A DNA stretch of 64,000 nt, from positions 2,108,001-2,172,000 of the forward strand of contig OY756146.1 in the NCBI GenBank assembly GCA_963576785.1, given 5' to 3'. The notes beneath the pieces are model-generated. The model was given only the letters and a program-made list of their open reading frames with translations, had not been told where the DNA came from and did no database searches. The DNA is from Chlorophyllum brunneum. Lineage: Eukaryota > Basidiomycota > Agaricomycetes > Agaricales > Agaricaceae. This document shows, one piece after another, positions 9,630-62,766 of the stretch. Position numbers and translations under genes: made by a program. Numbering within the stretch: position 1 is the first letter of the stretch; every line of letters starts with the position of its first letter.

Positions 9630-12600
9630 TCAGAGATAGAAGGGTATTCCGTATACAACAGGTGCCGCCCCAGTGAGATACTTCAACTTGGGAACGCTAC
9701 GTGCATGCGCAACAGCCGAAACCAAAGACACGCCTGTACTACTCGAACTATTCCATGTGCGTACGTTCTCTGGATTCAGCTGAACTTTATCAAAGACGGC
9801 TTGACTGAACTTATCAATGTCACGGTCAGTTACGTCCCACAGGTTTGCAACGAGGGTTGGACTGGTGGTGTTAATGAATCTTGAGTACTCGAGCATCGGA
9901 ATCATAGATATAAATCACTCACCAGCCCCCCAGCATGTATGCATTGGCTGTTCCTATCCGATCAAAGTCACCCATCTCGCGTAATGCACCTGACGAACAA
10001 CCCCAAAGCATAGTCACGGCACATGATTGCAGACGTCGGACCTTGTATGTCCGCAAGTACTGTTCTCCCCCACCATGGCCAAAATATCTGAACAATCACG
10101 ACATTAATTCACACCATAGAAACAGAAATAGTAAGATGAAGATGACTCACACAACAAGGTCCATCTGACGCAAGGCATTCTCAAATTGCTGCTCGCTCAC
10201 CGGTTTCCCAACGACCCCACTCCACCCTGCCTGCTTCATCCCGTCAGCCCAATCCTTGAAACGTTCCTGCGTTCGCCGAAGATCACCACTCGGGTTCAAA
10301 ATGAAATATCCTTTGCGTGGATCTACAACTGCGCCGAAGGGGACCGATTTGTCAGAAGGCGGCTGGGTGCGTCTCCTAATCTCGGCATACTCCAGACGGT
10401 CGATGAGGAAATCCACGCTTGGTACCCTACTAACGCTCCGTCCTCGTAAGATCGGTATACTCTCCCAAGGTAACCCCTGCAAGTTTTTATCCAACACTAG
10501 GAAGACATGCTCGTCATCAAGCTGATCACCTCCATGTTGTTTCCCGCTCCTCTTCAATCCCCGCATCTTCATCGAATGCTCTTCCAAAATCGTCCTAATG
10601 TCGACCACCATCTGCGTGATATCAACCTCGGAAATGGGTATAGCGACTCCGTGGAACTGGTATAGATCCAAAATAAAGTAAATCAAATCTTCCAACTCTT
10701 CATCTCGACATTTCGGTGAAAGAGTCGAGAAGCAGCGAAGCAAACCATCATCGAGTCGGACTTGGCCGAAAGTTTGAATTTGAAATTGCGACGATGTCTT
10801 CCTATGGGTTGCCCCCCGTTTCTTATCTTGTATCCCAAAGCTTCGCCTGAACACCTTTTCAAACCGATCCCTCAATTCCGTGATAGCCTCAGGGCTGATC
10901 TTGCATTTCGGACTGAGAATAGTCTATGACAAAGTGAGACCAGTACCCCACCTGAGGAATTTCGGTGCGTACCTTGAAAGCCCCAAACCAACAAAACTCA
11001 ATATTTTCCAGCAAATTCTTCAACCTCGAATCTAATTCCGCTCGCTTCTTCCACCATGCCACTCTCGCTTCCTCATCATCTGGTTTGACATGTATAGCAG
11101 CCTTAGTTCCCTCATCACTCAACCTCACAATCTCCCGCAACTCGTGTATCGCGCCGTTGAACGACAAATAATCCTCTTCATCATCTCCACTCCCACTATC
11201 CCTCCTACTCTTCAACGGAACAGAGAACACGAGACTGTCACCATCAACGCCCCCTTCTTGTCTCGACACGAAGAGAGTATTCTTATCCTCAGTGACATTG
11301 ATATGAATAACTGTCCAGTTCGACGGTAGCTTCTCCGTTTGTGAGGACGACAAAGTTGAAGAGTTGAAGGAGTACGACCGATAACGCGCTCGTACTGTAT
11401 CCCAATACACCTTTAACGGTGATGTCTCGAGCTCCAACATCTCTTCGTCTTCCTCATCTTCAGGGTCCACTGGAATATTCACCCGTTTCCAGGTGGTAAA
11501 GTTCGTGCCCGCAACGGGAGGAGGAAGCATGTTACCTTCTGTAGTGATGGGCGGCCACTGCATATCATCTACAGCCGGCGACCTAGGAAACTTGTGGTGG
11601 ATAGCTTCAAGCATCTCTCGTCGTAACGTCAAGGCAGCTGAAGCATCTACGTAACCGCCCGTAATCAGCATGTACACAGTAAACCAGACCAAAACATACC
11701 TAACAATCGTGATACCATCACATGCACCTTTCCATCCTTACGACCCATTGAAGTTTGAAATGATTTGATGACAGCTAAAGCAACAGCGGATTCCCTAATG
11801 TCAAGGACGTTTCCTCGCTGCGCTATCAGTGTCAAGCTATTCCAAAATTGCTCCTCCGCTTGGTCAAGAGCGTTATTGATGTCTTGGGCCGAAACGGATG
11901 TGAGTTTGTGTGTGGTCTGCATTCCCATAGGAATAGAAATCGCTAAGCAAGAAATAAATCAGAGGATCAAAAGATCTGAAACGGAAGGGACTCACGAGAC
12001 TCAGCAAGAGAGTTGAGGAACATATCTCCTTGAAAGCGTAGATAAACATTATGAAGGTTTAGTTTCGCCAACAGTGAACTCTCTTGGGCCCTCGTGAGCG
12101 ATGATCGAGGGAGTGAAGTAAATTGCTGAAGGAGAGAATTGAATTGTTCATTATTCTGATCACGCAGAAACCAGACTAGTTGATGTATTAGCCCACCGTA
12201 ACAGAAGAGAAGGACATGCACACCCACTTTGTTGTCTAAGGACATTCATCAAGACCTCTGGTACAATCACATCTTTTACCGTCTTCGCATTAACAGGCGA
12301 CAACCCAAGTGACTTTCTCGGCCTAACACAAACCTTCATCAACACCTTCCTACAAATGACCAGAGCTTTAAAAAAACGCACCCAAACGCAACACCTTCAT
12401 ATTTCTCAAACGCCGCATCAATCTCCCTCAACAAATCCACAGAACGCCCATACAGAACCTGTGCATCATCCTGACCCTCCACGCCCATCCTCTCTCGACA
12501 CTCCGCCGTCAATCTAACAACCTCAACTGAATCAATCGTCGGCACTTCACTCAACACCTCTCCCGCTTTCACAAGCATTTCATACCCTTCCTTCAACTTC

Positions 12601-23000: not shown

Positions 23001-25085
23001 TCAAGCGAAGGATTTCATCCGCCTCGAGGGCCGCAACGGCAGCTTGTTCCTGTGTGAGTGCTTCCATGTTAAGTTGGGATTTACGAGGCTTTAGTTTAGA
23101 TTTTTTGGTTTTCTTCGATTTCTTAACTTTCTTTGGTGAACCCTCTTCGTCTTCACCATCCACGGACATAGAATCGTCCTCTTCGTCGTCGTCGGTATCT
23201 TCATCATCTTCATCCTCTTCGGTCATAGCTCCATCGGCGTCTTTGTCAACGTCCATCGCGTTCTCGTCGTCACCACCACGTGCCTTAGACCTAAAGTGAC
23301 GACATGAACTTTATACGCACAGTGCGAACCCAATAAAGAACTCACTTCTTAGCCTTCTTTTCCTTAGGTGATCCATCCTCCTCCTCATCGTCATCTTCTT
23401 CTTCGCTCTCATCCTCTTTGTCGCTGTCATTTTTCTTCTTGCCCTCCTCCCCTTCCTCTTCGTCCTGTACCTCCACAGCTTTACCCACCTTACCCTCAAC
23501 CTTCTCCAACTCTTTCCTGACAACATCGTATTCACTGTTCCAAGTCTCATGCTGCAACATCCCACCATGCATCATTCCGTATGGATGTGTGACAAGTAGC
23601 TTGGTCAACAAGCTGACTGCAGCCTTCCTCACAGTCGAAACCTTATCCTCCAATGCCGCCACCGCCGCTCTCACACTTGCCAGTCTCTGTTTTGGGAATT
23701 TTGGGACCTTGATGTCAAACACCTTCGAGAGTACTGAAAGTACTTTGGTTCGAACGTATGACGAGACGTCGAGAATACGTTCATGGAGGAGGTCGAAAAG
23801 GCCGTTAATTTGCTTTTGAGTTTGTTTAGCATCGGTGTCCGAGTCCATGCCTCGAGCGAGCTCTTGGATGATGTAGCCGATGACTTCGACAATGGCTATG
23901 CGCATCGGATAAGCCTGGAAGAGAGAAAAAAGAGTCAGATGGCATTTTTGAAGCACTCCATTTGACGCACTTCAGAGTCCAACTGGTTCAGTAATAGACT
24001 AAGCTGCTTTAACACCGATCTTGGGGCATATTCCGCAAACTTGACCAAAAATTTGGCAAAGTTCCTTGGACCCTTATTATCCTGCGCGTTGAATGACTTG
24101 CTCGCGATCTCTCTCAAAATTTCGTCGCCGAGTTGAGTGTGAACGTATTGAGAGGCGAGGATGTGCAGGCATTCGGCTAGAATTTCCGGAAGATGTTCGT
24201 AAAACTGGAGGTTTTGAATGATGTTGGTGTGCGCTACCAGAATCTGGTTGTGATGTTTGACGGAAACGCAAATGACTTTTTCAGCGCCCAGCCTGATTTC
24301 CTCGACTTTCATGTACTGCTCGTTCTCGAGGACGTGGTATGCGGGTTTGACCAAGCAACTGTCCACTACGTTGAATGAAAATCAAATAGGGAATGAGTCG
24401 AGATGCTAACCTGACGAACGCCTCCCTTTCAGTGGTTGTGGTCCAAATCCTCTGCCAGTGCATCCCTAACCTGACCAGAATCTTACTGATTACTGTCAAC
24501 GTCGGCGGAATCTGTTGCTCCCAGGACCAATTCTCTTCCATCCGTGCAGCAACAGCTTTAGCGGCTCTTGCCCCACCGGCCTTTCCACCCCTTCCCCTTC
24601 TACCCTTTGGTGCAGTTGGAGGTGGTCCGTCATCATCTCTTCCCTTGACCTTCTCGGCCGCAGTGACGAACCATTGAAGTAGAAATGCGAAAAGCTCTAG
24701 AGGTAATCGATGCGATGAGTAGGCAGCTTGGTCGCCTGATTCAATATCGCGCATTGTGGCCTCGATCTCGCCCTGGAGTCCCGATGTAATAGAGTCGAGA
24801 ACTTTGTTCATGACGGTGCCTGGGACAGAGGCGGAATATTTGAGTACGCTCCTAAACACATCAAAAACTTCCGGGTCTCGAATAGCATCACTGGAGTGGG
24901 CGACAGCTTCTACGGCAGCTATACGAGAATTGTCAGTCAGGAAAGCAGATTGAAAGAACCTGATACGTACCTTCAAGAAGTCGTGTCGGGTCCTCCGAGG
25001 CAAAATCACGCTCGTTTGGTATTTCATAGTCTTGAGGGTCCTGTGTGAGGGCACTGAGCTCATCTTGCAGCTCAAAACGCTCCAT
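20038..25085 (-). CDS. CND1: Condensin complex subunit 1 (Cnd1 / CAP-D2, HEAT repeats)
   Basis: HEAT-repeat subunit of condensin, which compacts mitotic chromosomes. The start at 25085 gives MERFELQDELSALTQDP. Recognisable family blocks include LPLELFAFLLQWFVTAAEKV, EENWSWEQQIPPTLTVISKI, a LYVTHPYG-like HEAT block (LLVTHPYGMMHGGMLQHE), the Cnd1 core ISFNGMVKVKGQ-type segment (HLILNGMVKVKGQLGEMAKC) and the C-terminal RQWRDIAFCMSLLPFKSERS. Long acidic inserts (D/E runs near 21.8, 23.2 and 23.4 kb) and a lysine-rich stretch near 23.1 kb are linkers. It ends RRKPSARQAVAETEEDD, TAG at 20038, a basic/Ser tail like that phosphorylated by Cdk in other Cnd1 proteins. Many short introns. Length fits the family (about 1350 residues estimated). 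Confidence 0.92.
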
Positions 25086-25130
25086 CGTCAACGACGCTGT
25101 CAACTTCTGTAATCACCACAAACCACCCAG

Positions 25131-31347: not shown

Positions 31348-32910
31348 TCAGTCATCCTGTAAACTATTCACCTTTTCGAGAATTTCTCGAACCTTCGCAA
31401 AGTCAATCTCGATATTCAGGTGCTTCCTCATCTCGTTCCGAATGATTTGGTGCTCTTCTAGCACATAATTTTGAAAATCATCATCTTCGTGCCTCCCGAG
31501 ACCCCATGATTCAAGTTCCTCCACAATCTGGTCAGCCGTTGGGCGGTCCTCTGGATTGCGTACCCAACAACGATTCATCAGATCCCACATGTCGTCATCA
31601 ATCTGGTCCAGCCCCGAGGTACTATCAGTATCACCCTCAGGACGGATTGGTAATCCGCCTTCAATGATTGCACGAAGGACATTGATTGCGCGAGATATGG
31701 GTCCTGTCGAGTCATCACCTGGTTATGTTGTAAACTCCTTTGGTTTCGAGAGAGCAAATGTAGATGGTACCTCATAGCAGACACAGCCAAATCTCCGTAT
31801 GCCAGTGGCCTGAGTCTTTCGATACTCATCACCAAGCGACTCGGGTGCTTCCCAGCTGGGGTCTAAACCTGCAGTCACAAGTAAGGATACTATGGTCGCA
31901 TGTGTCTGAGGGCCTATCCATGCTCCAGAGAAGTATGCAATGCAAGCTCGCCCAACATCATTCACAACAACAGAAAACTGCATATGCAAAATTTAGGAGA
32001 GTGCCAGTCAGAGAAGAATGAACCCACACTTGTAAGATTGCTGTGTACAATGTTCTTACTATGCAGGTATTCGAGGCCCTTGGCAATATCATAGATCTAC
32101 AATAATATCAATTCCCGTCCTATAAGGAAAAGAGACACATACAAAAGGTTTACGTGGCTGAAGAGGATTATTTTCTAGAAACTCCTTGATATTACCATTC
32201 GTTATCCACGGAGACACAAGACAGAGGTGTTTGGGATCCCCATCTGGAAAATGTACACCATAAAAGGGTCTTATGTTTGGATGGTAAAGCTGTGACCATA
32301 AAGCAGCTGTATGAGAAAGTACCTATTCCGGAGCCGGTTCGAAAAAAGTTATGAAAAACAACAGAATGAACGCACCTCGGCACTAGAGCCCAGCTCTGGC
32401 TGCTCATGTGTCCAGACAACTTGCAACTCCAGCAGTTGTCCACCATAGTAACCTCTCCGGACGCCACTTCCAAATTCAGTATTCTCCCAGTCGACAGCTA
32501 TGTCTTTCAACATGTACGACTGTGGATAAAGGCCAGAGTATACAGAGAGCCAACCTAACACACGGTTCTGCCAGTCTCGAAGGTTAAGAGCTTGTAAGTC
32601 TGGATGAGAAGTCGCCTGAGCAAGAAAAATCAACAAAAGCCAAAACGAGACTGTTCTTGCGCTCACCAAATCCACGAAATCCAATATCAATTGAGCGTGA
32701 CCACCATTGAGTTGTTCCAGGGCCATCCTCTTGTGTTGAGTGCCCAACACAGATGCGAGCAGACAAACCAAGTCATCACCGATCATGAGGGGATCACGGA
32801 CACCTAGAACAAAAACATCAATAGTACAAACATGAAAATGGGCCAGTACCCTCGTACCATGATTAGGGATCACCTCAACTCCATTGGTCTTGATACGTGT
32901 CATTAAGCAT
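31348..32910 (-). other. Kinase module C (pseudokinase, all three motifs lost)
   Basis: The pre-kinase helix LLASVLGTQHKRMALEQLNG aligns with modules A and B. Beta-3 reads LLELQVVWT (Gln for Lys), the catalytic loop reads IVHSNLT (Asn for Asp) and the DFG site reads CIAYFSGA. The fold is kept (HPNIRPFYGV, CLVSPWI, GLEYLHSKN, FGCVCYEV, MNRCWVRNPEDRPTADQI). The module ends VREILEKVNSLQDD. Confidence 0.78.
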
Positions 32911-35900
32911 CTTTAAAGCTCCAAAACTAACGAACAACTCGCCTTGTGCAGTATGTACTGGACACGAAGCGACTTCTCGACCGTCATCACCGGGTTAGTT
33001 CTTGGCGCCTTCTCGAGCACTTCGTCTCTGTGTGCGAGGTAGCCCCGGACTTCCTCTTGGCGTTCTCTGAGACCCCTGGTTTCGAGTCCCTGCGAAATTT
33101 CCTGCGCAGTAGGTCGCTCCTTGGGTTCGTCTGCCAAGCACGACTTGATCAATTCCTGCATTTCACCGTCGATCTCGCTCATCTCCAACGTGGAGCCGCC
33201 TAGACAGGTTGGCTGTACGGGAAACTCTTTCGAGGTCACGATCTTTTCACGGTTAGAATAGAGAAGTCAGAACGAAAGCGCAGGCTATACCTCGTAGCAT
33301 ATGCATCCGAAAGCCCATATATCACCTGGTTTACTATGCTGGAGCTCGCCACTAGAAAGCTCCGGGGCCGACCAACTTGGGTGTGCAGTAGGAGTAGGAC
33401 TAGCGTTGATATCGCCAGAGGCAGTCCGCACGGTTAACATGCCAAGGTCGGTGATGCAAGCTCTCCCAAAGTAGTCCACAAGCACATTTGACTGTCAACA
33501 GGCTTAGGATGAACACTACAGGGGTAGGGAGTCGTACGATACCATTTTCAGCCGACCATGAATGATTTCCTGGTCGTGGAGATACTCAACGCCGCTGACG
33601 ATGTCATATATCTGGGCGATTCCGTTATTGAGGTCCAGATCGTAATAAACACGCTTACAAAGTATTCACAGGGCATGGATGGGTTTCTCTCCAAATATTC
33701 GCTAAGCGTATTAGCCTCCCTCCAGGGTGTCACAACGCAAAACCGCCTGGGGCTTTTATCCAGGTAGTGGACACCATACAAAGGCATGATGTTCGGGTGA
33801 CTGAGTCGTGCCCATTGGAGAGCCTCTCTCACGAAGATCTAGCCACGGTCACAGCATCAGAAGAGAACTAGAGACAGTCAGAAAACAGACCTGAGGCACG
33901 CAGTCCACGTTTGCTCCCTTGAATACCTTCACGCACGACTGTTGCGCACCATAATGGCCTCGGTAAATATCATGGAATTCTCCTGCATGCGGCTCGGGAT
34001 CCAACACGACTTCACTGATTACGAGTCGCTGCGGATACAATCCCAGGGCTTCGCAGAGTCGGCACAAAGTGGTAGTGGCACGTGTCGCAAGATCCGACTG
34101 AGAGGAGGGAGATAAGAACGATCGTGCGTTGACGAATGGAAGGAAGTCCACCAGCAATTGTGCTGCATCACCTTTCAGTTCTTGCAGGGCCCGGTTCTTC
34201 TGTGGGTCATTCAACACAGATGTCAGAATTTCGGAGAGACGGCGATTGGTTGACAAGATGTCACGAGCGTCCGGGACTGAGAAACGATGAGTCTTACTAG
34301 TGGGTCTGAAAGAAACTCAATTGATTGTACCGTGATTGAAAGTGCTTTCGGCGGTATGGATCTGGGGCTCATGAGCGGTCAATGGACAATAGGTTGGGAG
34401 GGTACCTACTTCATCAAAAATTGCCTGGACCTCGTTCTGATCGACCTTGGCTGTACCCGTGCCCACGATAGTCGCAGGTATTGTGGTATATTCCATTTCA
34501 TCGTCCCGCTGACCGACTCCTTGGCGCTCAAGTTCCTCCAATATTTGTTGACACATTGGGCGTGCTTCTGGGTCCTGCGACCAGCACCGGTCCATCAGTT
34601 CCCAGGTTTCTTCGTCAATCCTGTCTCTGGGGTCCGCTTGGGGTTCCTTGTCTCGCCGTGCAGGAAAGTCACCTTTGCCTATGGCCAGTAAAATCCTGAA
34701 GCTGGCGTGAAGACCTTTCATCGAGTGAAAGGGAAGCCGCCTGGATGAGATCTGACGCGGGTGTATAAGCAACACTCACTCGAAGAAGTGCACGCGCACC
34801 TCATAACAAACACATCCGAAGGCCCATACATCACTAGCTCGGGTAGGGAGAGTATTATCTTGCACAAGCTCGGGAGAGGCCCAACGGCCTGAATAGCTAG
34901 CGGCGCTACCTGTCACGTTCGTGAAGCCTATGGTCCTATCTACACGAATAATAGATGATCCAAAATCAGCAATGCACGCTCGTCCGAATTGATCCACGAG
35001 GATGTTCATCTAGCAGGCAATGCAACTCATGAGCCGAGGCAGATCTACACATGGACACGTTGGACCGACCGCTTTGAGATCCCCATGGATGATGTTCTCA
35101 TTGTGGAGGTATTCAAGGCCCAATGCAACATCACGGACCTGAAAGTCGTTGTCCTGTATTAGCGAAGAAAACAAGTGATGAATGGTGGGTCCACCAATAG
35201 TTTCCGATGGGCATCGGGGTTCCCCTTAAGATAGGCTTCAACGTTGCCGTTGTCCATCCAGGGCGAGACGAGGCATATCTTTTCCTTTGCCTCGTTGAGA
35301 TAGAAGATTCCGTAGAAAGGAACTATGTTGGGGTGACGGAGCTGGCCCCACACAATTGCCTCCTTCGCGTAGAGCTTTGGGAATCACGAGTGAGTTAGTA
35401 CGTGTAGTAGCGGGTAAATGTAGGCCAGGACGAACTTTGAGTGCTTCCGCTAACTCTGAACGAGTCAACCGCACGAGTTTCAAGCAGAGGACCAGGGAGC
35501 CTTGTTTTCCCCCGAATGAATGTCACCAAACATCCCACCTTCTTCACGGGATCTAAAATCGGTGATGCCCTTCAACACATACCAGCTGGGGTAGAGCATC
35601 GAAGACCCGCAGAGCTTTCGGAGAGCCAGGAGTGTGTGTTTGCGAAGCCAGGGCATTGAATCATTTGGGGGCTCTGACAACAACTATGAGGTTGAATCCC
35701 GTGAGTAGGTATGCACAAAGGCATCAGGACCGATTAGCGCCGACCTTGTACATGAAATTGATGACGGATTGAGCACGATCGTCTTTCAGATTCTCCAGAG
35801 CCTTTCGTTTCTCGGGGGTACTGAGGATGCTTGCGAGTGTGAACAGCGCGATGACTGAAGCCTGCAGAAACAGTGCGCGTTGAGTAATATGAACTATTGG

Positions 35901-36561
35901 GATTACAACAAATCCGATCGAACTGTCCGATAAAGAGATGTTCACCTTTGGATCATCCTGCGCTGGTATTGGGATATGCGGTGCCACAGCCCCAGACTCT
36001 GGGTGTACTGTTTCTGCATCCCGCGTTTATGGGAGCTGCCGGCGGGTCTTCGTTTTCAGAGCTCTCGCTCCCCTCCGACGAAATATCACTATTTTGTCAG
36101 TCTAACGACACATAGATGACAGGCCGGAATCAGCACCTCATTATAGTCTCCTCTTGGATCCGCTTGATTAATCGTTCCAGATCATGGCGCCATTGTCGAC
36201 TTCTTTCTTAACCTCACTCTTATGTCCTTGAATTGTAGGCGTGTCGCTCGACCACGATTGAACACGCGCCAGGACTTTCTCCAATGTCCTGGAATAACTT
36301 GGTCGATAACACAGGATCCGACATCTGCAAATGGAACTCACACGATACTCTCCTCGATCGTTGCTTGAGATTTCAAGTTGACCCGCATTGCTTCCAGTGC
36401 AAGCTCCACGCTCTTCATTCCCAGTATTCTGACGTGCTGTAGGATGGATCAGTAATGATCTCTCGAATCCGGAAGCCTCAAATTACCTTGCTCGCCCCGA
36501 TACTGGTTACATTCTCACAAGACTTGACGATCTCAGACGCCAGATCACCCATGAGTGGCAT
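31348..36561 (-). CDS. Tandem kinase/pseudokinase protein (three TKL-like kinase modules)
   Basis: Inferred single gene with an N-terminal helical region, an acidic linker (DISSEGSESSENEDPPAAP) and three kinase modules in a row. The modules belong to the Agaricomycete Tyr-kinase-like group (HPNI..FYGI, CLVSPWM, GLEYLH, HGDLK, DVWAFGCVCYEV). They are joined by two in-frame introns: 34277-34330 (54 bp), which removes the TGA after module A, and 32911-32958 (48 bp, GTACAT to TTAAAG), which removes the TAA after module B. Module B has no ATG within the 40 bp after module A's stop, so a separate gene is unlikely. The start at 36561 (MPLMGDLASEIVKS) is the first clean ATG but is uncertain. Module A carries a one-base frame break near 35505-35513, unless a 38 bp intron is spliced there, which would remove the glycine loop. 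Alternative: two or three separate genes, one or more decayed. Confidence 0.6.
32959..34276 (-). other. Kinase module B (catalytic Asp lost)
   Basis: Begins directly at a splice acceptor (VPDARDILSTNRRLSEIL). The beta-3 lysine is kept in CVKVFKG and HPNIMPLYGV is normal, but the catalytic loop reads IIHGRLK, with Arg at the HRD Asp position, and DFG reads DLG in CITDLGML. DIWAFGCICYEV and the ERPTAQEI region are intact. Likely a pseudokinase. Confidence 0.75.
34331..35990 (-). other. Kinase module A (canonical motifs)
   Basis: Pre-kinase helix TLASILSTPEKRKALENLKD, glycine loop GGMFGDIHSGE, beta-3 lysine in LCLKLVRL, alpha-C Glu in AKEAIVWGQL, HPNIVPFYGI, hinge CLVSPWMDNGN, catalytic loop IIHGDLKA joined to NILVD, DFG in CIADFGSS, ASPE, and SDVWAFGCVCYE. 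All catalytic residues are present. A frame change lies between the glycine loop and beta-3. The C-terminal part ends VQAIFDEVGTL and then STFNH at the junction with module B. Confidence 0.75.
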
Positions 36562-37362
36562 CAGCAGTGCATATTCAGACCGGCGATAGTGGTACCAGGG
36601 CTTCGCTGTGCAGACATGGTGGAAACTGAAAGGAAGGGGTAGGTGTGATTCGATAACACGTGGTCACATCGAGAATCAGAACATGAATAGTATTCGCATA
36701 CAAATCCCAGAACCAGACTAGAGCAAACGGGATGCATGGAAAAGGAACAGTCGATGGGAAGGATAGAAGCGTCACCATAGGGGGGTCGCAAACCGACGTT
36801 CAAGCGTCCTTCCCGTCCATTGCGCCGTCAATCGTCTTTCTCGTCGAGTTCTCAAACGCCTCTTAGTCCACGGTCCCCTATCCATCAAAGAATGAGGTAT
36901 TGGTCTATACGGCCTTAGTCTTTCGCTTCTACGGTGGTGAATTCAGCGGTGTTTGCAGAATGATGGGAACTATCACCGTAGGCATACACCTGCCAAGTTC
37001 GCGGACACTGGTGAGGGCTGGATTCGGTTCCGGAGTCGGTGTATTGCGCGGAGATCGAATATCCCACTTCGAGATGAATTTCATATTCCTGTTGTCCGAT
37101 AGACGATCGTGATCATGATCGGAGAGATAACCCCTTTCTTCCGAGCAATCGGAAGAGATGGTTATGATCCGAGCTCGTGCAGGGGAAGTATCTCAGTGGC
37201 AGTGCTCAAGGTACTTTGCACATGCACAACACACGCTGAGCGTCAGGTCACAAAACGGTGAGTTAGCCCTCCTTGACTTAACCTCTACTAACTCTGCGAC
37301 ATATTATACAGCGATGCGTCAAATCCAGATTTTCTGGCCTTCTAAAGCTCAATATCTTTGGT

Positions 37363-39464: not shown

Positions 39465-40762
39465 CTATCTGTTCCGCAACCGTTTCTCTGAACGCTCTCC
39501 GGAAACCACGATCCGGTACTCTGTAGAACTTTCCAAAGAAATAACCACCTTGGTAATCGTTGGGATCACCATGTCTTCCTCAATGACATTCAAATGATCT
39601 TCCAACTCTCCCTCAGGTCGCTTCCGTTTTCCAAGACCCTATCGGAGATTTACACTCACTTCATTCAAATGTAATCTGAAATACGTACCTTCAGGTCTAC
39701 CACCATCTCAAACTGGAATTCATTACTCTTGTCACCCACTCTGCTATAACCACCACTACTAGTAAGATCTCCAGTCTCGACTCGTTCCTCCTTAACTGAC
39801 GGCCTCTCTGGTGATGTATGTTGTCGTTGCCTTTCTCCGTTCACCGAAACATTCCCAGTTAATGAACCTGATATAACAGTTTCCGAGTCCGAAACGTCCT
39901 GCTTGAGCGATTGGCTTTCCCAGACCCGTTCAAGGACAGCCAAAAACCCTGCCCTTCGCTCGTGTTCCTCCCTGTCATCAGGTGGTGGTGGTGGTGGATC
40001 TACAGTGTGCATCTCCCCAGATGATCCCTCTGTTCTCAATCCAGTCAGCTCCCTCTCACATTCTCTCAATCGCGTCATCTCATCTGCCTTTTTCTGTTTC
40101 TTCGTCTTCTGCCCTCCATTCAATTTGATCATCTCTCGCTTTTCCTTCTTTCTCGCTTTACGTTCCTTTTTAGTGAGGTTTTCGGTCGGCTGTTGTTCTA
40201 CCCTCTGTTGCACTACTACTTTCGGTTGCAGAAACTCCTGCTGTTCTTCAAGTCTCCGTTTCTCCTGTCTTATTTTCCTTTCATGCTGCACCGCTTCCCA
40301 AAAGCTGCTGAAACGAGCGGTCCATCCCGGAGTATCACCCCTTGCTTGGGTGCTTCCACCTTCATCCAAAACTACATCCTGCTCTACTTCTTCGACCTTG
40401 GGCTCCACCCCCATCACGACTGTCTCCCCTGGTTCCTGAGGTTCCTCGTCCTCATCTTCCCATTTTCCTTTTCCTTCGTTTCTATAACCATCCTCCGGTT
40501 GGACTTTGGAAAGGCCAGCATCCCAGGTACCTTCTTTGGCCACCTCATCTCCCTTATCATAAACCCCGTCATGAATACACTCAGCTTCAACACTAATCTC
40601 ATCCTGTGCGGTCCCGTCCACTACATTCATCGTTTCCTGGATACCCATCGGCATAGTATCATCCTGGGATACAACTTGCATGGGTAAATCCATCGATATA
40701 ATGAAAAGGAGTGCGAAACCCGACAACGAAACGACTGTGTGACCAGCACCCGTGATAGTCAT
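39465..40762 (-). CDS. Hypothetical acidic/basic low-complexity protein, paralogue 1
   Basis: Two exons joined at the intron near 39.64-39.69 kb (FQFEMVVDLK joined to GLGKRKRPEGELEDH), ending TEYRIVVSGERSEKRLRNR with TAG at 39465. Order of regions: short hydrophobic start (TVVSLSGFALLFIISMDLPM), a Glu/Asp-rich stretch (WEDEDEEPQEPGE), a Gln/Glu coiled-coil stretch, a strongly basic block LTKKERKARKKEKREM that could be a nuclear signal, a poly-Pro run, AVLERVWESQSLKQDVSDSE, and the conserved C-terminal FEMVVDLK/VVISLESS part. About 420 residues. No known domain recognised. Clearly paralogous to the gene at 42133-43668 through most of its length. Confidence 0.7.
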
Positions 40763-41195
40763 AGCCCCGAAATCGTGTTTCTCCCACAGTGGCTATAATA
40801 ATAGATCAGGAATAACGTAAACATAATTTATGTTCAGTGTTTAAAAATACAAAGGTCATTAACATGTGGAGAAACTGATGGAAGTTGAGCCACGATATTA
40901 CAACTCAATGCACAACATTTCCGCTTCTACTCCAGAATCAAGTTTACTGATCAGGTATCCTCATATTCACCTAAAACGTTCATGGTCCATCAATATACAC
41001 TGAGTATCTCTGATCATGAAGCAAGGAAAACGTATAGCCAAATTACGATATACGCTTAACATTTAATGACCAAAATATCGGTAGCGAATGCGGTTACTGT
41101 GGTCAGTCCCTACGTGGACGGTACCTGGGCGCGAAGCTTCGACAGCAGCAATTGGATCGAACAAGCGAGGAGGGGAAGTGCTACGTTGTTTGCCC

Positions 41196-42132: not shown

Positions 42133-43668
42133 TTACATTTCAATCATTTCTTCCGCCCGCGACCGTTTCTCTGGACGTTCACCAGAAACCACAATCCGGT
42201 ATTCTGCAGAACTCTCCAAAGAAATAGCCACCTTTGTAATCGTCGGAATTTCCATATCTTCCTCAGTCAAATTTTTGGGGTCTTCCAACTCTCCATCATC
42301 GAGTCGTTTCCGTTTTCCAAGCCCCTATCGCAGATATACACTTACTTCATATGAGTACAAATCCGAAATACGTACCTTCAGGTCTACCACCATTTCAAAT
42401 TGGAATTCATTACTCTTGTTACCCACTCTACTATAAAAACCCCCGACAGTAAGTTCTCCTGGTTCCTCCTTAACCGTGGGTCTCTCTGGAGCAGTAAGTC
42501 GTTGTCGCCCTTCTTCGTTTACCGACCCATTCCCAATCAGCGAACCTGATATAATAGTTTCCGGGTTCGAAACGCCCTGCTTGAGCGTTTGGCTTTCCCA
42601 AACCCGCTCAAGCACAGCCGAAATCCCAACCCTCTGTTCCCTATCACCAGGTGGTGGTGGTGGTAGTGGCCGTAACGGTGGATCCACAATCCGCATCCGC
42701 CCAGCTGATCTCTCCGCTCTCAATCTAATCAACTCCCTCTCACATTCTCTCAACCGCGCCATCTCAACCTCCCTTCTCTGTCCCTTCGTCATCTTTCCTC
42801 CATTCGTCTTCTTCCCTCCATTCACCTTCTTCCCTCCATTCAATTTAGCCATCTCTCGTTTTTCCTTCTTCCTCGCTTTACGTTCCCTTTTCGTAAGCTT
42901 TTTATTCGGCTGTTGTTTCACCTTCCCCTGTTTAACTCCTTTTTTCGTTTGCGGAGCCTTCTGTTGTCCTTCAGGTTTCTGTTTTTCTTCTTCTTCAGGT
43001 TCTCGTTGCATTTTAACTTGATTCCGTATCTCTGCTCTCCGCTCCCTCTCCTCTCGTTGCTTTTCCACCCGCGCTTCTTCCTGCTTTTTCTTCCTCTCGT
43101 ATTGCATCACTTCCCAGAAGGTACTGAAACCAGCGGTAGGCTCCGTCACTGGAGGAGCATCACAAGTCCTCCTGCTTTCTTCCAGTATTACATCCAGATC
43201 CATTTCTTCGATCACGGGCTCCACCGCCGTCAACGCTGCCTTTCGCAGTTCCGGAGGCTCCTCGTCGTCCTCATCTTCCCATTCCCCTTCCTCTTTTTCA
43301 TTCCCATCCTCCTTTTCATTCCCGGGCAAGCCGTCATCCAAGGCACCTTCTTCGGCGTCCTCAGTCCCCTTATCATGACCTCCATCACGGTTCCACTTAC
43401 CTTCAACACTAATCTCGCCCTGTGCGACCCCACCCACCATCCCATCCTGCAATAAAATTCGCATAGGCAAGTCCATCAGTACCAATGAGAGTAAGGAAGG
43501 CGACTGTGTGACCGGTACCGGATTGATAGTCACAGCCCCGAGTTCATGCTTCGGCTCTTCCGCGGCGATTACAGTAATAGCAATGGCCATATAAATAACG
43601 TTAACAATAGAGTTGGAGCAGGAATCCGAGCTAGAATATGATGGGCGCCCATGAAAAACTACAGGCAC
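42133..43668 (-). CDS. Hypothetical acidic/basic low-complexity protein, paralogue 2
   Basis: Same architecture as the gene at 39465-40762: hydrophobic start with MDLPM, acidic EWEDEDDEEPPE, FWEVMQYERKKKQEE coiled coil, LTKRERKARKKEKREM basic block, poly-Pro run, AVLERVWESQTLKQGVSNPE, and FQFEMVVDLK spliced at about 42.33-42.37 kb to GLGKRKRLDDGELED, ending SAEYRIVVSGERPEKRSRAE then EMIEM. It has extra NGGKK repeats (VNGGKKTNGGKM), in phase with a 24-27 bp repeat at 42.79-42.84 kb, that the sister gene lacks. The start is uncertain: ATG at 43668 or a downstream ATG near 43.59 kb. Function unknown. Confidence 0.7.
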
Positions 43669-43689
43669 AACGAATCCATTTCATCCTTG

Positions 43690-46962: not shown

Positions 46963-49011
46963 ATGCCTCTCGACTGGCCACATCTCCGCCGTCGCTCGTT
47001 GCTCCCAGGCGGCTTTGGCGAAGACAGAGTGCATATATGGTCCGTGCGCATTCCCGTTCTTTGTTATATACCCCTCACATCCAGCAGGCCGCGCCTTCTC
47101 AACGTCGACCCCGCTCGCCTCCAGCCCTCGTCCTCCAAATCAGAATTCCACCGCGACGAATACCAGATCAAACTAGACACAGCTAGAAGCTTCGTCCTAT
47201 ACCCTCCCAACTCCTCTGACGGCCAACGCACCCGACTCCAAAAAGACCTTCACCAGCTTATAATCGCTCTCTTCCACAAACGGCCAAAACTAAACTATTT
47301 CCAGGGATACCATGATATCGTATCAGTCTTGTTCTTGACATTGCCAGAAGAATTGCAACTGGTTTGCCTTGAGAAATTGAGTCTGCATAGGTTGAGGGAT
47401 TCCATGGGGCAGGGCCTGGAGCCTGTCCTGGGTTTGCTTCGGTGCGCAGCGCTGTTCTCTTCATTCTCCACGCGGGATGCTGACGCTTTGTGTGCTTAGT
47501 CTTACCAAGAAACTGATCAGACTGGCTGATCCAGACATGTCCGCTATGCTTGACCAGTACGCCCCCACTCCATCCACTCCGCGCTTGATCTAACAATGGA
47601 ACCAGATCTTCTCAATTACCCTTCTTCGCGCTCTCAAACCTCCTCACACTCTTCTCACACGATATGCCCTCCCTCCCACTCATCCAACACGTTTTTGATT
47701 ATCTATTGTGTCGCCCACCTATCGCTGTCGTGTATCTCGCAACTGCGGTACGCCCCACCTCCGCTATCGATGTTGATTACTAAAGTTATATATAGATCAT
47801 ACTTTCGCGGAAGGAGGAAGTGCGCAGGTTGCAAGACGAGGACGAGGATGGGATGATCCACTCCCTCCTGAGTAGTCTCCCCCACCTTGTTGACGACGTC
47901 GAGCCCCAACTCTCCCCGGAACGCGAAAATCAAGTAGAATCTAACGATATTGAACCTTCGTCCGCAAAACAACTGCCCAATGGGACCGCCCATTCAGCGA
48001 ACGACGAACCAACTTCAGCCGACGACACTGACATCACGGTCGTTGTAAATCAATCAAGTTCAACATCCCCCGATGAAGATAAGGACGAATCAGAGACCGA
48101 AGCGGGAACGGAACGAACATCGTTCTCGCCTCTACCAGAATCAGAGTTGACTCTGGTCGATACAGTCGAAGCGAAAGCAGTTCCAAACCCCAAGGCCGAC
48201 GGAGAAGAAGAGTCCACCGCACCAACGAAACGCGTCGAAACCACAACACAGAACATCGCAAACCCCAACTCCAAATCCACACCCTCAACTCCCGACGCAA
48301 CCAAAATCCCTCTTCCCGCCTCTCGTTCCCCCACTCCAACCCCTCCATGCCCTGCGCATCTTCACCCTTCACCTCCCTCCATACCATCCTCCAGATCCCC
48401 CTCCCCATCTCCCTCACACATTCCTCTAACTCTCACCGCGTTTCTGACCAGCGCCGACGCTCTCTACAAACTCTACCCGCCAACTCACCCGCAACTCTCG
48501 CTATCTCTAATCATGGGTCCGCAATCAATCATCCACACTTGGTCTCAAAATTTCCGTGATTGGCCAAGTGACAATGACGCGGAGGTTATGGTTACCAGAC
48601 CCGATCTAGTTGTATACCCTTACGATCCTCAATTTTCCGCTTCCGAAGACGATAGTGATAGTGAGGGTGGTGAGAGTGAGAGTGTAGGTGAGGAACACGA
48701 GAATGCTAGAAGGGGACGGAAGGGTGGTAAGAGAAGGAAGAGAAGGAAGTTGACGAAATCTCCGAAACAGTATCAAAAGCATAAAGAAAAGGCAGCTAAG
48801 AAACATAAGAAGCGATTCGGGTTTGTTAGAAGTGTTGAGAAACGAGCAATGTTGACTGGGGCGGTTGTCGTACTTGGAATCGCTATGACAATGTATGGTG
48901 TTAAGAATGGTGGCAAAGGTGCATCTGGTGAGTGTGTTTTGTTGTTATCAAATTTCACAATTACCATCATCGATGTTTATAGGAGGACGACATTGGCCTT
49001 GGTCGTGGTGA
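46963..49011 (+). CDS. TBC-domain Rab GTPase-activating protein (TBC1D20/Gyp8-like)
   Basis: Stimulates GTP hydrolysis by Rab proteins at the ER/Golgi in the TBC1D20/Gyp8 family. Exon 1 (46963 to about 47.04 kb) encodes MPLDWPHLRRRSLLPGGFGE, joined by a ~49 bp intron to PRLLNVDPARL. The TBC arginine-finger motif IxxDxxR is seen as IKLDTAR and the glutamine-finger YxQ motif as LNYFQGYHDI. Family blocks LEKLSLHRLRDSMG, LSNLLTLFSHDMPSLPLIQH and SRKEEVRRLQDEDEDGMIHS follow. After an acidic Ser/Pro-rich linker the C-terminus has a basic patch (KRRKRRKLTKSPK) and one hydrophobic helix, AMLTGAVVVLGIAMTMYGV, as in ER-anchored TBC1D20. A last intron (about 48.93-48.98 kb) leads to a short end GGRHWPWSW, TGA at 49009. 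The linker is longer than usual. Confidence 0.88.
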
Positions 49012-50561
49012 ACTTGTTCTATAATATAGTTCGGCCCTTGGTGGACTCACACATCTGGAGTTATTTAATATCTACGTTCTCATTCTTTTTAAATTATTCT
49101 CAGATTTAGGGACTTTTTTTGTTTTATATAACTCTGAATGGATTTTAACACCTATGTTGTTAAACATATCCAGTTTAAACATGCCTTGTGAAAACCGGCG
49201 TAGATTGACATTCGTTAATGATAATACAGGGAACAATGTGATAGAACTGGACCAAAAATGTTATTATCTACCCAAACCAAGGTGCAGAAAAAAAAAACAG
49301 CGAGAACGAGCGGGATCGATGACAGTAAGCCCCCCCTTCGCCGATGCCAGAATAACGTTTGCTAGTCAAAATACAACGCTATCCCTGTATAACAAAGGTC
49401 AACGGATATCGAAGAGAAAACGCACGCGCTCAAGTTAAAAAAAAAAATCAATAACATAACTACATTGCAAGAGGTTCGTAAATATGCTTTCTTGGGACAC
49501 GTGACAAGTCACAAGATTAGAGTAGGTAGTTCCCAGCGAGACCATGTGTACTCCCTCGTCCACCTCATTCGCGTTCGACTCGACATAAATCCCCTAAACG
49601 ACATTCAATTTTTTATTTCCCACCCACCCACCTCAACCCTTCTCCCTAGTGTTATATCACATAGTCAAGAAGTCATATCAAGCCAACAAACCGTGCAGTG
49701 ACCCTCGAAGAGACATTTTTTGGGCAACCCGTCTGCGTCCTCTCCTCAGGCTCACACCTGGCCAATATCGGAATCTCCCCCTCTTCGAGATTCCCATCCA
49801 CCACTTCCAAAAGACTCCGCATGGTTTGCCTAAGCGTTAACTACGAGCTGATACGACATACCTTCCCTTAAGTGTCACCCTATCCCAAGAATTAATCTCG
49901 GTTCCTGTAAATGGAGATGCAATAAACTCAATACACACACACACTGGCAATTTTGCACAGGTGTTGGAAAAGGGAGTTGGGGCTCCAGAGATGAATAATA
50001 ACACTGCTCACCTGGTCCCCCCCCGGCAAAAAAAATAAAACCAATGACACCTCACTCTTTTCGAATACAAGAAGTATTATCGAAAAATGGCACAAATATA
50101 TGTGAATGTATGTGATGAGTGGAGGGTTAGGCTAACGCAGATGCGGCTCGGAGAGAGCCACTACGGTATTGTGTACGATGTGTGTGTGGTGGCATTCGAT
50201 GCATGCTTTTAGATGGTATGAAATGGTGACGAACCTCACATGTCGAAGATCTGTTAACCCTAACAAATAACAATTGCATAGTCTTGCAGAAGTCATATTG
50301 ATCCGTGCATTGGATTGTCGTGCCTTACAATAGTCATATGTTGTAGATGTTGGGGATGTTGAAGGGACCCAAAGTGGGTGGTATCGGGGAGTAATTAAGT
50401 AAACTATCGGTGTATACACTCAGAGACCAATGAAGGCAAAAATTAAAACTCAGATGTAGACACGAGGATACTCCACAGTTTACTATTCCAACAGAAGATA
50501 CTGACCAAAGTTCCACCAAGTGTTCTTACAGTAAGTAGCCCCACCACTGGATGATCCGCAG
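49012..50561. other. Convergent intergenic region
   Basis: 1.5 kb with poly-A/poly-T runs, a CACGTG at 49498-49503 and no supported gene. It should hold both facing 3' UTRs. Confidence 0.45.
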
Positions 50562-61461: not shown

Positions 61462-62766
61462 TTATACTGCCCTGCCCACCTCGAAATGGTTGAGGTCAGA
61501 CACAGCGATCACCTGCGCAGATCCAAGCAACGGAACCCGTTGTGCTTGCTGGACTGTAGCGACCACTGGTTGACTAGCTCCTGTCCCCACGGATACGTCC
61601 GACATTGTTACAGTTGACAGTGTACTCGCTCCTGTTTGGGAGGATACTCTTCTGCTAGAGTACAGGGGTAATGTTGAAACGCTCGGGTCTGTTCCTGGGT
61701 GAGAATTTCGACTTAGAGGCGGGTCGTTCGTGTGATAGCTGGGAGCGCGGAGAATGCTAGTATTAGCGCCCGTAGAGTTCGCGGACTGTGGAGTGTTGTT
61801 ACTACGTGGGCTTGGGTCTCTTCGAACGTCAACCATGGGGGGTGGCGGGAGGGGAAACGCATCAAGGGAGGGAGTAACGAGTTGGCGTGAGATGCCCGAT
61901 TCTTCCGTTAATGGGGAATCGAGCCTGAGGCTCGCGCTGCTAGTAGCGGCAGATGCCAATTGGTGGATAGGTAAGCCATAGGTTTGAGGAGTCAAGTTTC
62001 GTGAGGACGGGCTGGATCTAAGGTCAGGGAAATGACTTGAAGGAGAATTTATCTCGGTGTCTTCCACGCTCAAGCCTGTGGCGTTCATAGATCGCTTTGG
62101 CTTGACGTGAATAGTGCCATCGCGAGAGATAGCTCTGCTGCCCCCATTTGACAAACGATTCGACATCGATTCTTCGTCAATGCGAGATAATTGTACACGC
62201 TGTTCCGATGGTCCTGCTCCGATATGATCCTCACGAGTGCCGGAAAATATGTTTTTCCCTTTCCACGGCTTGGGTTGCATCCTCTCAAACCCCCCACCCC
62301 AAAGGTCTGCGTCCGTGTACCCTTGCGCATTTCCAGACGGACCACTACCCGAGCCACCACCACTCCTTGAGTTTCTCTGGGATGTTGGACCACTCTGGAT
62401 ACTGTGTGAGTAAGTGCAAAGTTTGCAAATCACCGGTATGCACCTTGTCAGTTTTGAATTCTGGCCGCTTCCGCGTTCTCCTCCACCCCTTCCAGACAAA
62501 TATCGTGCCGAGCCTTGACCTACTCGACCGTCCCATGCAGTGAAACACGCATAAACCAACTCCAGCCAGCCACAATCCCAGATATACCAAAGCCACAACC
62601 GTGCTTACAGTTGGTCCAACTTCGATCTCGCGTTTAATGAAACGAGTCTCACTAACCGAAAGCATTCAGTTTCAGCCCTCAGTAATAGACAGTGGCGGGG
62701 GGCTTACCTATCATTTGCGGAAGCATAAGCTCGATGATTACTAAAGCCAGGTATAGCGATATACAT
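61462..62766 (-). CDS. Single-pass membrane protein with Ser/Pro-rich tail
   Basis: Exon 1 at 62766 reads MYIAIPGFSNHRAYASAND; an intron joins it to SETRFIKREIEVGPT, and one hydrophobic helix (VSTVVALVYLGLWLAGVGLC) follows. A short basic stretch (GWRRTRKRPEFKTDK) then leads, through an intron at about 62.40-62.44 kb, to a ~330-residue Ser/Thr/Pro-rich tail: SGPTSQRNSRSGGGSGSG, GGSRAISRDGTIHVKPKRSM, HFPDLRSSPSSRNLTPQTYG, PTEESGISRQ-like stretches. It ends SDLNHFEVGRAV, TAG at about 61462. Positive-inside charge suggests the tail is cytosolic and the short N-terminus outside. The layout resembles Agaricomycete orphan membrane proteins of unknown role; no domain recognised. Confidence 0.6.

Follow-up and report, generated by a model that had tools for sequence, protein, structure and literature searches.

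An apparently inactivated member of a multi-copy mushroom gene family predicted to join a kinase to two pseudokinase modules

Tandem kinase-pseudokinase proteins matter in cereal rust and mildew resistance and in animal cytokine signalling. Does a mushroom gene encode a protein of this general plan? The question is raised by a locus on the minus strand of a 64,000-nucleotide (nt) stretch of the Chlorophyllum brunneum genome (GenBank assembly GCA_963576785.1, contig OY756146.1, positions 2,108,001 to 2,172,000; hereafter the window). An earlier note, made from the letters of the window, had read positions 31348-36561 as a single gene for three kinase modules in a row, here called A, B and C, and had proposed a fungal kinase/pseudokinase sensor or scaffold, knowing of no fungal triple of this kind that had been described. 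Our analysis indicates that the locus is probably an inactivated copy of a multi-copy Agaricomycete family whose product would be a TKL-type kinase regulated by two pseudokinase domains.

Hand splicing of the minus strand over 31348-36561 and the flanking sequence gave a single open frame of ~1,010 amino acids (aa) running from exon A3 through exon C5. All three modules contain pieces that exceed the Pfam cut-offs for the kinase superfamily (31.7 bits for Pkinase, PF00069, and 23.1 bits for PK_Tyr_Ser-Thr, PF07714). Module A (exons A3-A6 only) scored 129.6 and 126.8 bits, module B 105.5 and 105.5 bits and the main piece of module C 44.0 and 63.2 bits; the short C-terminal piece of module C taken alone fell below the kinase cut-offs. 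With kinase matches in pieces of each module, the head-to-tail order of three kinase-like modules on the minus strand is upheld. Matching exons are equal in length across A, B and C (180/180/180 nt and 69/69/69 nt). Furthermore, the A-B and B-C linkers are built alike, with two introns around a 31-nt exon, as expected for an internally repeated gene.

A search of the same genome (38.9 Mb, 14 contigs) for sister copies returned 114 exon-level matches, other kinases among them. From the 17 regions taken, 11 proved to be candidate copies (L036-L046), and all were aligned with a purpose-written spliced, frame-tolerant protein-to-genome aligner. The window copy, as its own query, scored 6028; sister loci scored 3103-4297 in eight of ten cases, the other two being L038 (2089) and L039 (1992), and L046 scored 1383. 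Other kinase loci (L047-L052) reached 713-1181, and five reversed, complementary or shuffled controls 278-359. Counting the window copy, the twelve loci divide into four clean copies, one apparently open copy with a swapped third module and seven broken ones. The clean copies, L037, L040, L041 and L042, have zero stops and zero frame breaks over the whole gene (1,320-1,341 aa, with the first exon of L037 judged by eye) and share both pairs of linker introns. A product of more than 1400 residues, as first predicted, is therefore too long. In L045 (G000:C6:833000-840000, minus strand), modules A and B are open and a different third module, with K, HGD..N and DFG complete, is joined in frame through the same linker introns (its end judged by eye from one open frame). 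This module falls outside the clade formed by the C modules and is an apparent module swap. A tandem kinase-pseudokinase architecture in one predicted polypeptide is thus well supported by the structure of the sister copies, and the earlier claim of one gene holds for open copies with the same linker introns, although the window copy itself is broken.

The same alignments bear on the individual junctions. The intron that had been placed between A and B at 34330-34277 is correct: a phase-1 intron lies there in nine of ten aligned copies, and in the tenth, L044, it appears in another alignment. An additional A-B intron precedes it (Table 1), and, as already noticed, module B's frame contains no ATG ahead of its conserved part. 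Between B and C the in-frame join stands, and the TAA at 32913 is intronic either way, but the borders proposed for that intron (32958-32911) were rejected: the sister copies share a GC-AG intron of 54 nt at 32942-32889, followed by a second one (Table 1). The donor of the 54-nt intron is GC in the window, L036, L037, L040, L041, L044 and L045 and GT in L042 and L043. In one alignment, covering the window copy plus five of its sisters, 131 of 136 introns had a GT donor and 5 a GC donor; since the aligner permits only GT or GC with AG, the intron borders themselves are no independent test. The start of the gene also had to be moved. The ATG at 36561 sits within the intron-1 region of the sister copies, and a first exon upstream of it was placed by homology, its counterpart being aligned in L036 and L040-L043 and seen by eye in L037.

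Does the window copy still encode this protein? It lacks the uninterrupted frame and splice sites of a functional gene, with four frame breaks (near 36197, 36024, 35512 and 31694) and a lost AG acceptor at intron 1. The breaks number 4 in 3,984 coding bases, compared to 0 in 15,738 in the four clean copies (Fisher p 0.0017, indicative because the clean copies were selected for cleanness). The window copy therefore looks like an inactivated, pseudogene member of the family and, as assembled, is neither the sensor nor the scaffold that had been proposed. Among the other broken loci, a single in-frame stop interrupts L036, and a stop plus two frame breaks are seen in L043, which is nearly a copy of L042; L044, L038, L039 and L046 are more strongly decayed. 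A short intron spanning the break in module A, drawn by eye, was set aside, as it would remove a glycine loop that other copies keep. We also considered whether the copy is intact and its breaks are assembly errors. Each break involves one or two bases, that near 35512 lies at a short G and A run, and the remaining frame is open; however, the clean copies in the same assembly have none, and a splice acceptor has been lost as well. We consider assembly error an unlikely source of the breaks.

Catalytic residues set the three modules apart. In a residue alignment of ten rows (the window, L036-L038 and L040-L045), module A reads HGD..N in all ten rows and DFG in eight, with a gap at DFG in L043, and the active-kinase set (VAIK Lys, alpha-C Glu, HRD Asp, Asn and DFG Asp) is complete in 8 of 10. 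Module B has HGR in nine rows, the exception being the decayed L038; it retains the lysine in all ten, has DLG or DIG everywhere but in L038, and keeps the metal-binding Asp and, mostly, the catalytic-loop Asn. Module C has lost the lysine in all eight C-type rows, which exclude L038 (decayed) and L045 (swapped), and has DFG in none of them; in the window copy it is without the VAIK lysine, the alpha-C glutamate and DFG. Modules B and C accordingly show the consistent loss of catalytic residues that marks a pseudokinase. The predicted plan is a kinase, then a pseudokinase with a possible nucleotide site, then a more degenerate pseudokinase.

Are the dead modules maintained? We compared the clean copies by Nei-Gojobori counts of the ratio of nonsynonymous to synonymous substitution (dN/dS), setting the pair L040-L041 apart. 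In the five informative pairs, dN/dS was 0.10-0.25 for module A, 0.22-0.27 for B, 0.26-0.28 for C and 0.18-0.54 for the N-terminal region. These low ratios suggest constraint on modules B and C, though slightly weaker than on A. The pair set apart, at about 1.82 and 1.87 Mb on G000:C8, differs at 15-33% of nucleotides in aligned blocks 241-420 (the module A core) and from ~961 onward (module C) and at 0-7% elsewhere, a mosaic that suggests exchange between copies. A sensor or scaffold role would fit both the constraint on the dead modules and the history of the family, which is multi-copy, mosaic and of the birth-and-death kind. An alternative is that B and C are passengers, decaying after internal duplication with no function of their own. 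Residues for catalysis are indeed lost from both, and most of the loci are broken. However, B and C show ratios of 0.22-0.28, frames stay open over ~800 codons in four of the copies, and module B has a near-constant change to HGR in place of random loss, all of which argues against this explanation; we regard it as improbable.

Other tandem kinases appear among database proteins. Two protein searches, from which the best 120 each (of 424 and 226) were kept, yielded 224 distinct proteins; the length limits set on candidates, 0.55-1.75 times that of the query, bias the list towards proteins with several modules. By a threshold-based count, 160 of these have one kinase module, 46 two, 11 three, 4 four, 1 five and 2 none, so triples do occur among the listed relatives. 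They include predicted three-module proteins of the family's type, labelled "hypothetical" or "kinase-like". Among the 62 multi-module proteins, 36 mix complete and incomplete modules, 13 have all modules complete, 4 have none complete and 9 could not be assigned. This residue survey is rough: it misplaced the lysine in third modules from Leucocoprinus, so that 36 mixed proteins is probably low, and the set includes some non-fungal proteins and possibly fused gene predictions. The nearest relatives listed are fungal, chiefly Agaricomycete, with Leucoagaricus and Leucocoprinus the nearest named. Two further apparent tandem loci were seen in the C. brunneum genome itself. L050 (G000:C6:822000-829000, minus strand) is an apparent three-module gene; its alignment shows no frame break, and two stops lie close to the start, which is poorly aligned. 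Its modules read HGN, HNN and HGD/GFS, every one short of a catalytic residue. In L052 (G000:C5:2283000-2290000, minus strand), two kinase modules reading HCD/HGD and DFG stand side by side, behind a stretch that contains a GxxGSGKSS motif; the locus resembles P0018, a protein with a GTPase-like part and two modules.

Two sets of database relatives are informative about origin. P0001 is an uninterrupted 945-aa product with two modules on a 4,104-base contig. Like the window family, it has a similar N-terminal stretch (recognized by eye and then aligned), a complete first module and a second module without the catalytic Asp; unlike that family, it has only two modules, with an end that matches the end of module C. 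The second set comprises four three-module proteins of Leucocoprinus birnbaumii (P0007, P0013, P0014 and P0017) together with P0122, whose three modules lie in one uninterrupted product of 1,184 aa from a 3,770-base contig. P0122 is ~50% identical to the four over its full length, and these triples span 1,158-1,253 aa. P0122, uninterrupted on a 3.8-kb contig, would most easily be a spliced transcript. The set shares with the window family three modules of the same superfamily per protein, whereas the L. birnbaumii proteins have the reversed order, pseudokinase, pseudokinase, kinase (the third modules of P0007, P0013 and P0017 read complete; the third-module lysine of P0014 was unaligned), and belong to a different clade, indicating a separate origin. 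A search of the C. brunneum genome for reversed-order triples like P0122 gave 57 exon-level matches (best E 3e-17), none of them a close copy.

In a tree of 120 modules, built by a quick method with eight family loci in and L038, L039, L043 and L046 out, A (8 rows), B (8 rows) and C (7 rows) each formed one clade with a support of 100 in the SH-like approximate likelihood ratio test (SH-aLRT), indicating that the triple is older than the expansion of the family. The relatives of P0122's modules lie in a clade other than A, B or C, and triples therefore arose more than once. The second module of P0001 groups with B and C (93), and its first module is placed together with A and four single-module proteins in a set of 13 rows (95). 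The simplest history would be a kinase-pseudokinase pair whose second half was then doubled, and P0001 may be similar to the state that preceded the split of B and C.

Structural models were made of the relatives P0001 and P0013. The AlphaFold model of P0001 (mean predicted local distance difference test score, pLDDT, 73.0; predicted template modelling score, pTM, 0.54) shows four helices followed by a kinase fold, twice over; that of P0013, the Leucocoprinus triple, is weak (mean pLDDT 66.9, pTM 0.48). In a Foldseek search of P0001 against the PDB, the top match was an entry titled EGFR-KDD, KDD standing for kinase-domain duplication, and then came mostly single kinases, such as MerTK, DDR2, BRAF and RIPK1. 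No JAK was among the best 50 matches.

Several observations weigh against a maintained kinase with two pseudokinase regulators. Seven of the twelve loci are broken, and a full protein is beyond the window copy as assembled. In module A of the clean copy L041, GFG replaces DFG and the Asp is gone; catalysis need not be a property of all clean copies. Module C is not uniformly dead site by site, as L037 keeps HxD where the other seven C-type rows do not and L040 reads DFS. The pair L040-L041 gave dN/dS values of 0.53 for A, 1.42 for B (dS 0.02) and 0.40 for C, with no constraint visible on this short branch. Finally, the N-terminal region has no Pfam match and no PDB relative (best E 0.035, a flagellin) and is mostly below pLDDT 50 in the P0001 model; among 2,899 candidates, no protein shared it at E 0.01 or better.

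The N-terminal region also bears on a different kind of protein, an MLKL-like cell-death executioner with an N-terminal four-helix bundle under pseudokinase regulation. A short charged N-terminal region does sit before the kinase and pseudokinase domains, and a passage of PMC12881547 mentions HELL-kinase proteins in fungi. However, with neither a Pfam or PDB match nor a confident model, an MLKL or HeLo identity for the region is unsupported, and we think such an executioner quite improbable. That three (or two) separate tandem genes with their own transcripts were wrongly joined in our reading is highly improbable: single modules do resemble single-module Agaricomycete kinases (the 160 above) and automatic predictors do fuse neighbouring genes, but the identical linker design, in frame across sister copies, the lack of a start codon for module B's frame inside the linker and the uninterrupted multi-module products P0001 and P0122 all speak for one gene.

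How might a family protein of one kinase and two pseudokinases work? One gene would give a short N-terminal region and three repeats, each a helical pre-domain followed by a TKL-like fungal kinase fold. Module A would be the catalytic output. In JAKs, the pseudokinase domain acts on the kinase domain as a brake or an activator, and module B, with its lysine, mostly its Asn and its metal-binding Asp but no catalytic base, could likewise be a nucleotide-sensitive brake or activator on A. Module C, which should be unable to coordinate ATP-Mg in the usual way, may serve as a protein-binding scaffold, sensor or bait. Module loss, mosaic exchange and swapping among copies suggest a diversifying binding face, as in recognition gene families, and the family may plausibly have an immune or self-recognition role. 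A wider proposal, possible though doubtful, is that mushrooms repeatedly evolved their own kinase-pseudokinase receptors, convergent with the tandem kinase-pseudokinases (TKPs) of plants and with JAKs and unrelated to GCN2, and that this family would act in intracellular self/non-self or anti-parasite recognition, with the third module a rapidly exchanged bait and A the signalling output.

In this single fungal genome, four three-module genes remain clean, and there is apparently a fifth. If transcripts confirm them, the idea that pseudokinase control evolved repeatedly in mushrooms could be tested directly, and there would be a concrete hypothesis for a large and so far unexplained expansion of Agaricomycete kinases. 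The family offers a lead on regulation or sensing by dead kinases in mushrooms.

The layout of the window copy is given in Table 1, together with results from a Pfam scan of ten long open frames of the window, three of which matched the families named there. The broken kinase gene shares the window with housekeeping genes.

Table 1. Parts of the window copy and long open frames elsewhere in the window (window coordinates).
Feature	Position	Strand	Remarks
First exon, by homology	36596..36617	minus	start ATG at 36617, placed by eye; MSAQRNPS-type start
Intron 1 position	36549..36595	minus	AG acceptor of sister copies absent in window copy
N-terminal region	35946..36548	minus	helical by eye; frame breaks near 36197 and 36024
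N-terminal region exons	36548-36487, 36436-36342, 36288-36137, 36088-35946	minus	
Module A, helical pre-domain and kinase	34410..35861	minus	K, E, HGD..N and DFG present; frame break near 35512
A-B linker exon, 31 nt	34331..34361	minus	flanked by introns 34409-34362 and 34330-34277
Module B, predicted pseudokinase	32943..34276	minus	HGR for HGD, DLG for DFG; frame open
B-C linker exon, 31 nt	32858..32888	minus	introns 32942-32889 (GC-AG) and 32857-32804 (GT-AG)
Module C, predicted pseudokinase, strongly degenerate	31348..32803	minus	frame break near 31694
PIP5K match	485-1492	plus	
Separase (Peptidase_C50) match	10150-10923	minus	
Condensin Cnd1_N match	24284-25087	minus	
Long open frame	39668-40792	minus	this and the next three: 375-451 aa, no Pfam match at E 0.001
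Long open frame	42328-43680	minus	
Long open frame	47796-49106	plus	
Long open frame	61465-62604	minus	

Among known systems, JAK and TYK2 provide the working analogy, an active kinase regulated in cis by a pseudokinase. The order in JAKs, FERM-SH2-pseudokinase-kinase, is reversed relative to the window family, which has two pseudokinases. No FERM or SH2 match to Pfam was found in the pieces scanned, and the order kinase-pseudokinase-pseudokinase places the family outside the JAKs. The plant TKPs, which excerpts of PMC6170490 define while naming JAK alongside, include WTK1/Yr15 and RPG1 and, like the window family, have no other known domain according to those excerpts. They derive from plant kinase families, whereas the window family is of fungal TKL type with three modules, each with a helical pre-domain; the role shown in immunity is that of the plant proteins. 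With its nearest listed relatives fungal, the family would be convergent with the plant TKPs and no member of them.

The suggestion that no fungal triple of this kind had been described survives in part. Among the matches listed in open-licence literature, we found no description of a fungal kinase-pseudokinase-pseudokinase protein or of an expanded family of that type; in PMC12550465 the only mention of "tandem kinase" is the title of a reference on wheat. However, the "hypothetical" three-module proteins are already in databases, and among described fungal proteins GCN2 carries a pseudokinase next to its kinase, the pseudokinase being regarded as a scaffold for the adjoining kinase domain (PMC12394161, in excerpt). 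GCN2 resembles the window family in joining the two in one fungal protein and differs in having one pseudokinase, another order (RWD-pseudokinase-kinase-HisRS-like-CTD in the same excerpt) and the character of a conserved stress kinase without an expanded family. The pieces scanned had no RWD or HisRS-like Pfam match.

A further correspondence is with FslK, described in PMC3937382 as fungi-specific kinases with tyrosine-kinase-like sequence and species-specific expansion in Agaricomycetes. FslK members are treated there as mostly catalytically complete, unlike the window family, with additional domains in 16 of 241, and the words "tandem" and "pseudokinase" are absent from the main text. The fungal class, the sequence type and the species-specific expansion are the same as in the window family. 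By this agreement of taxon and sequence type, FslK is likely the family to which the window gene belongs.

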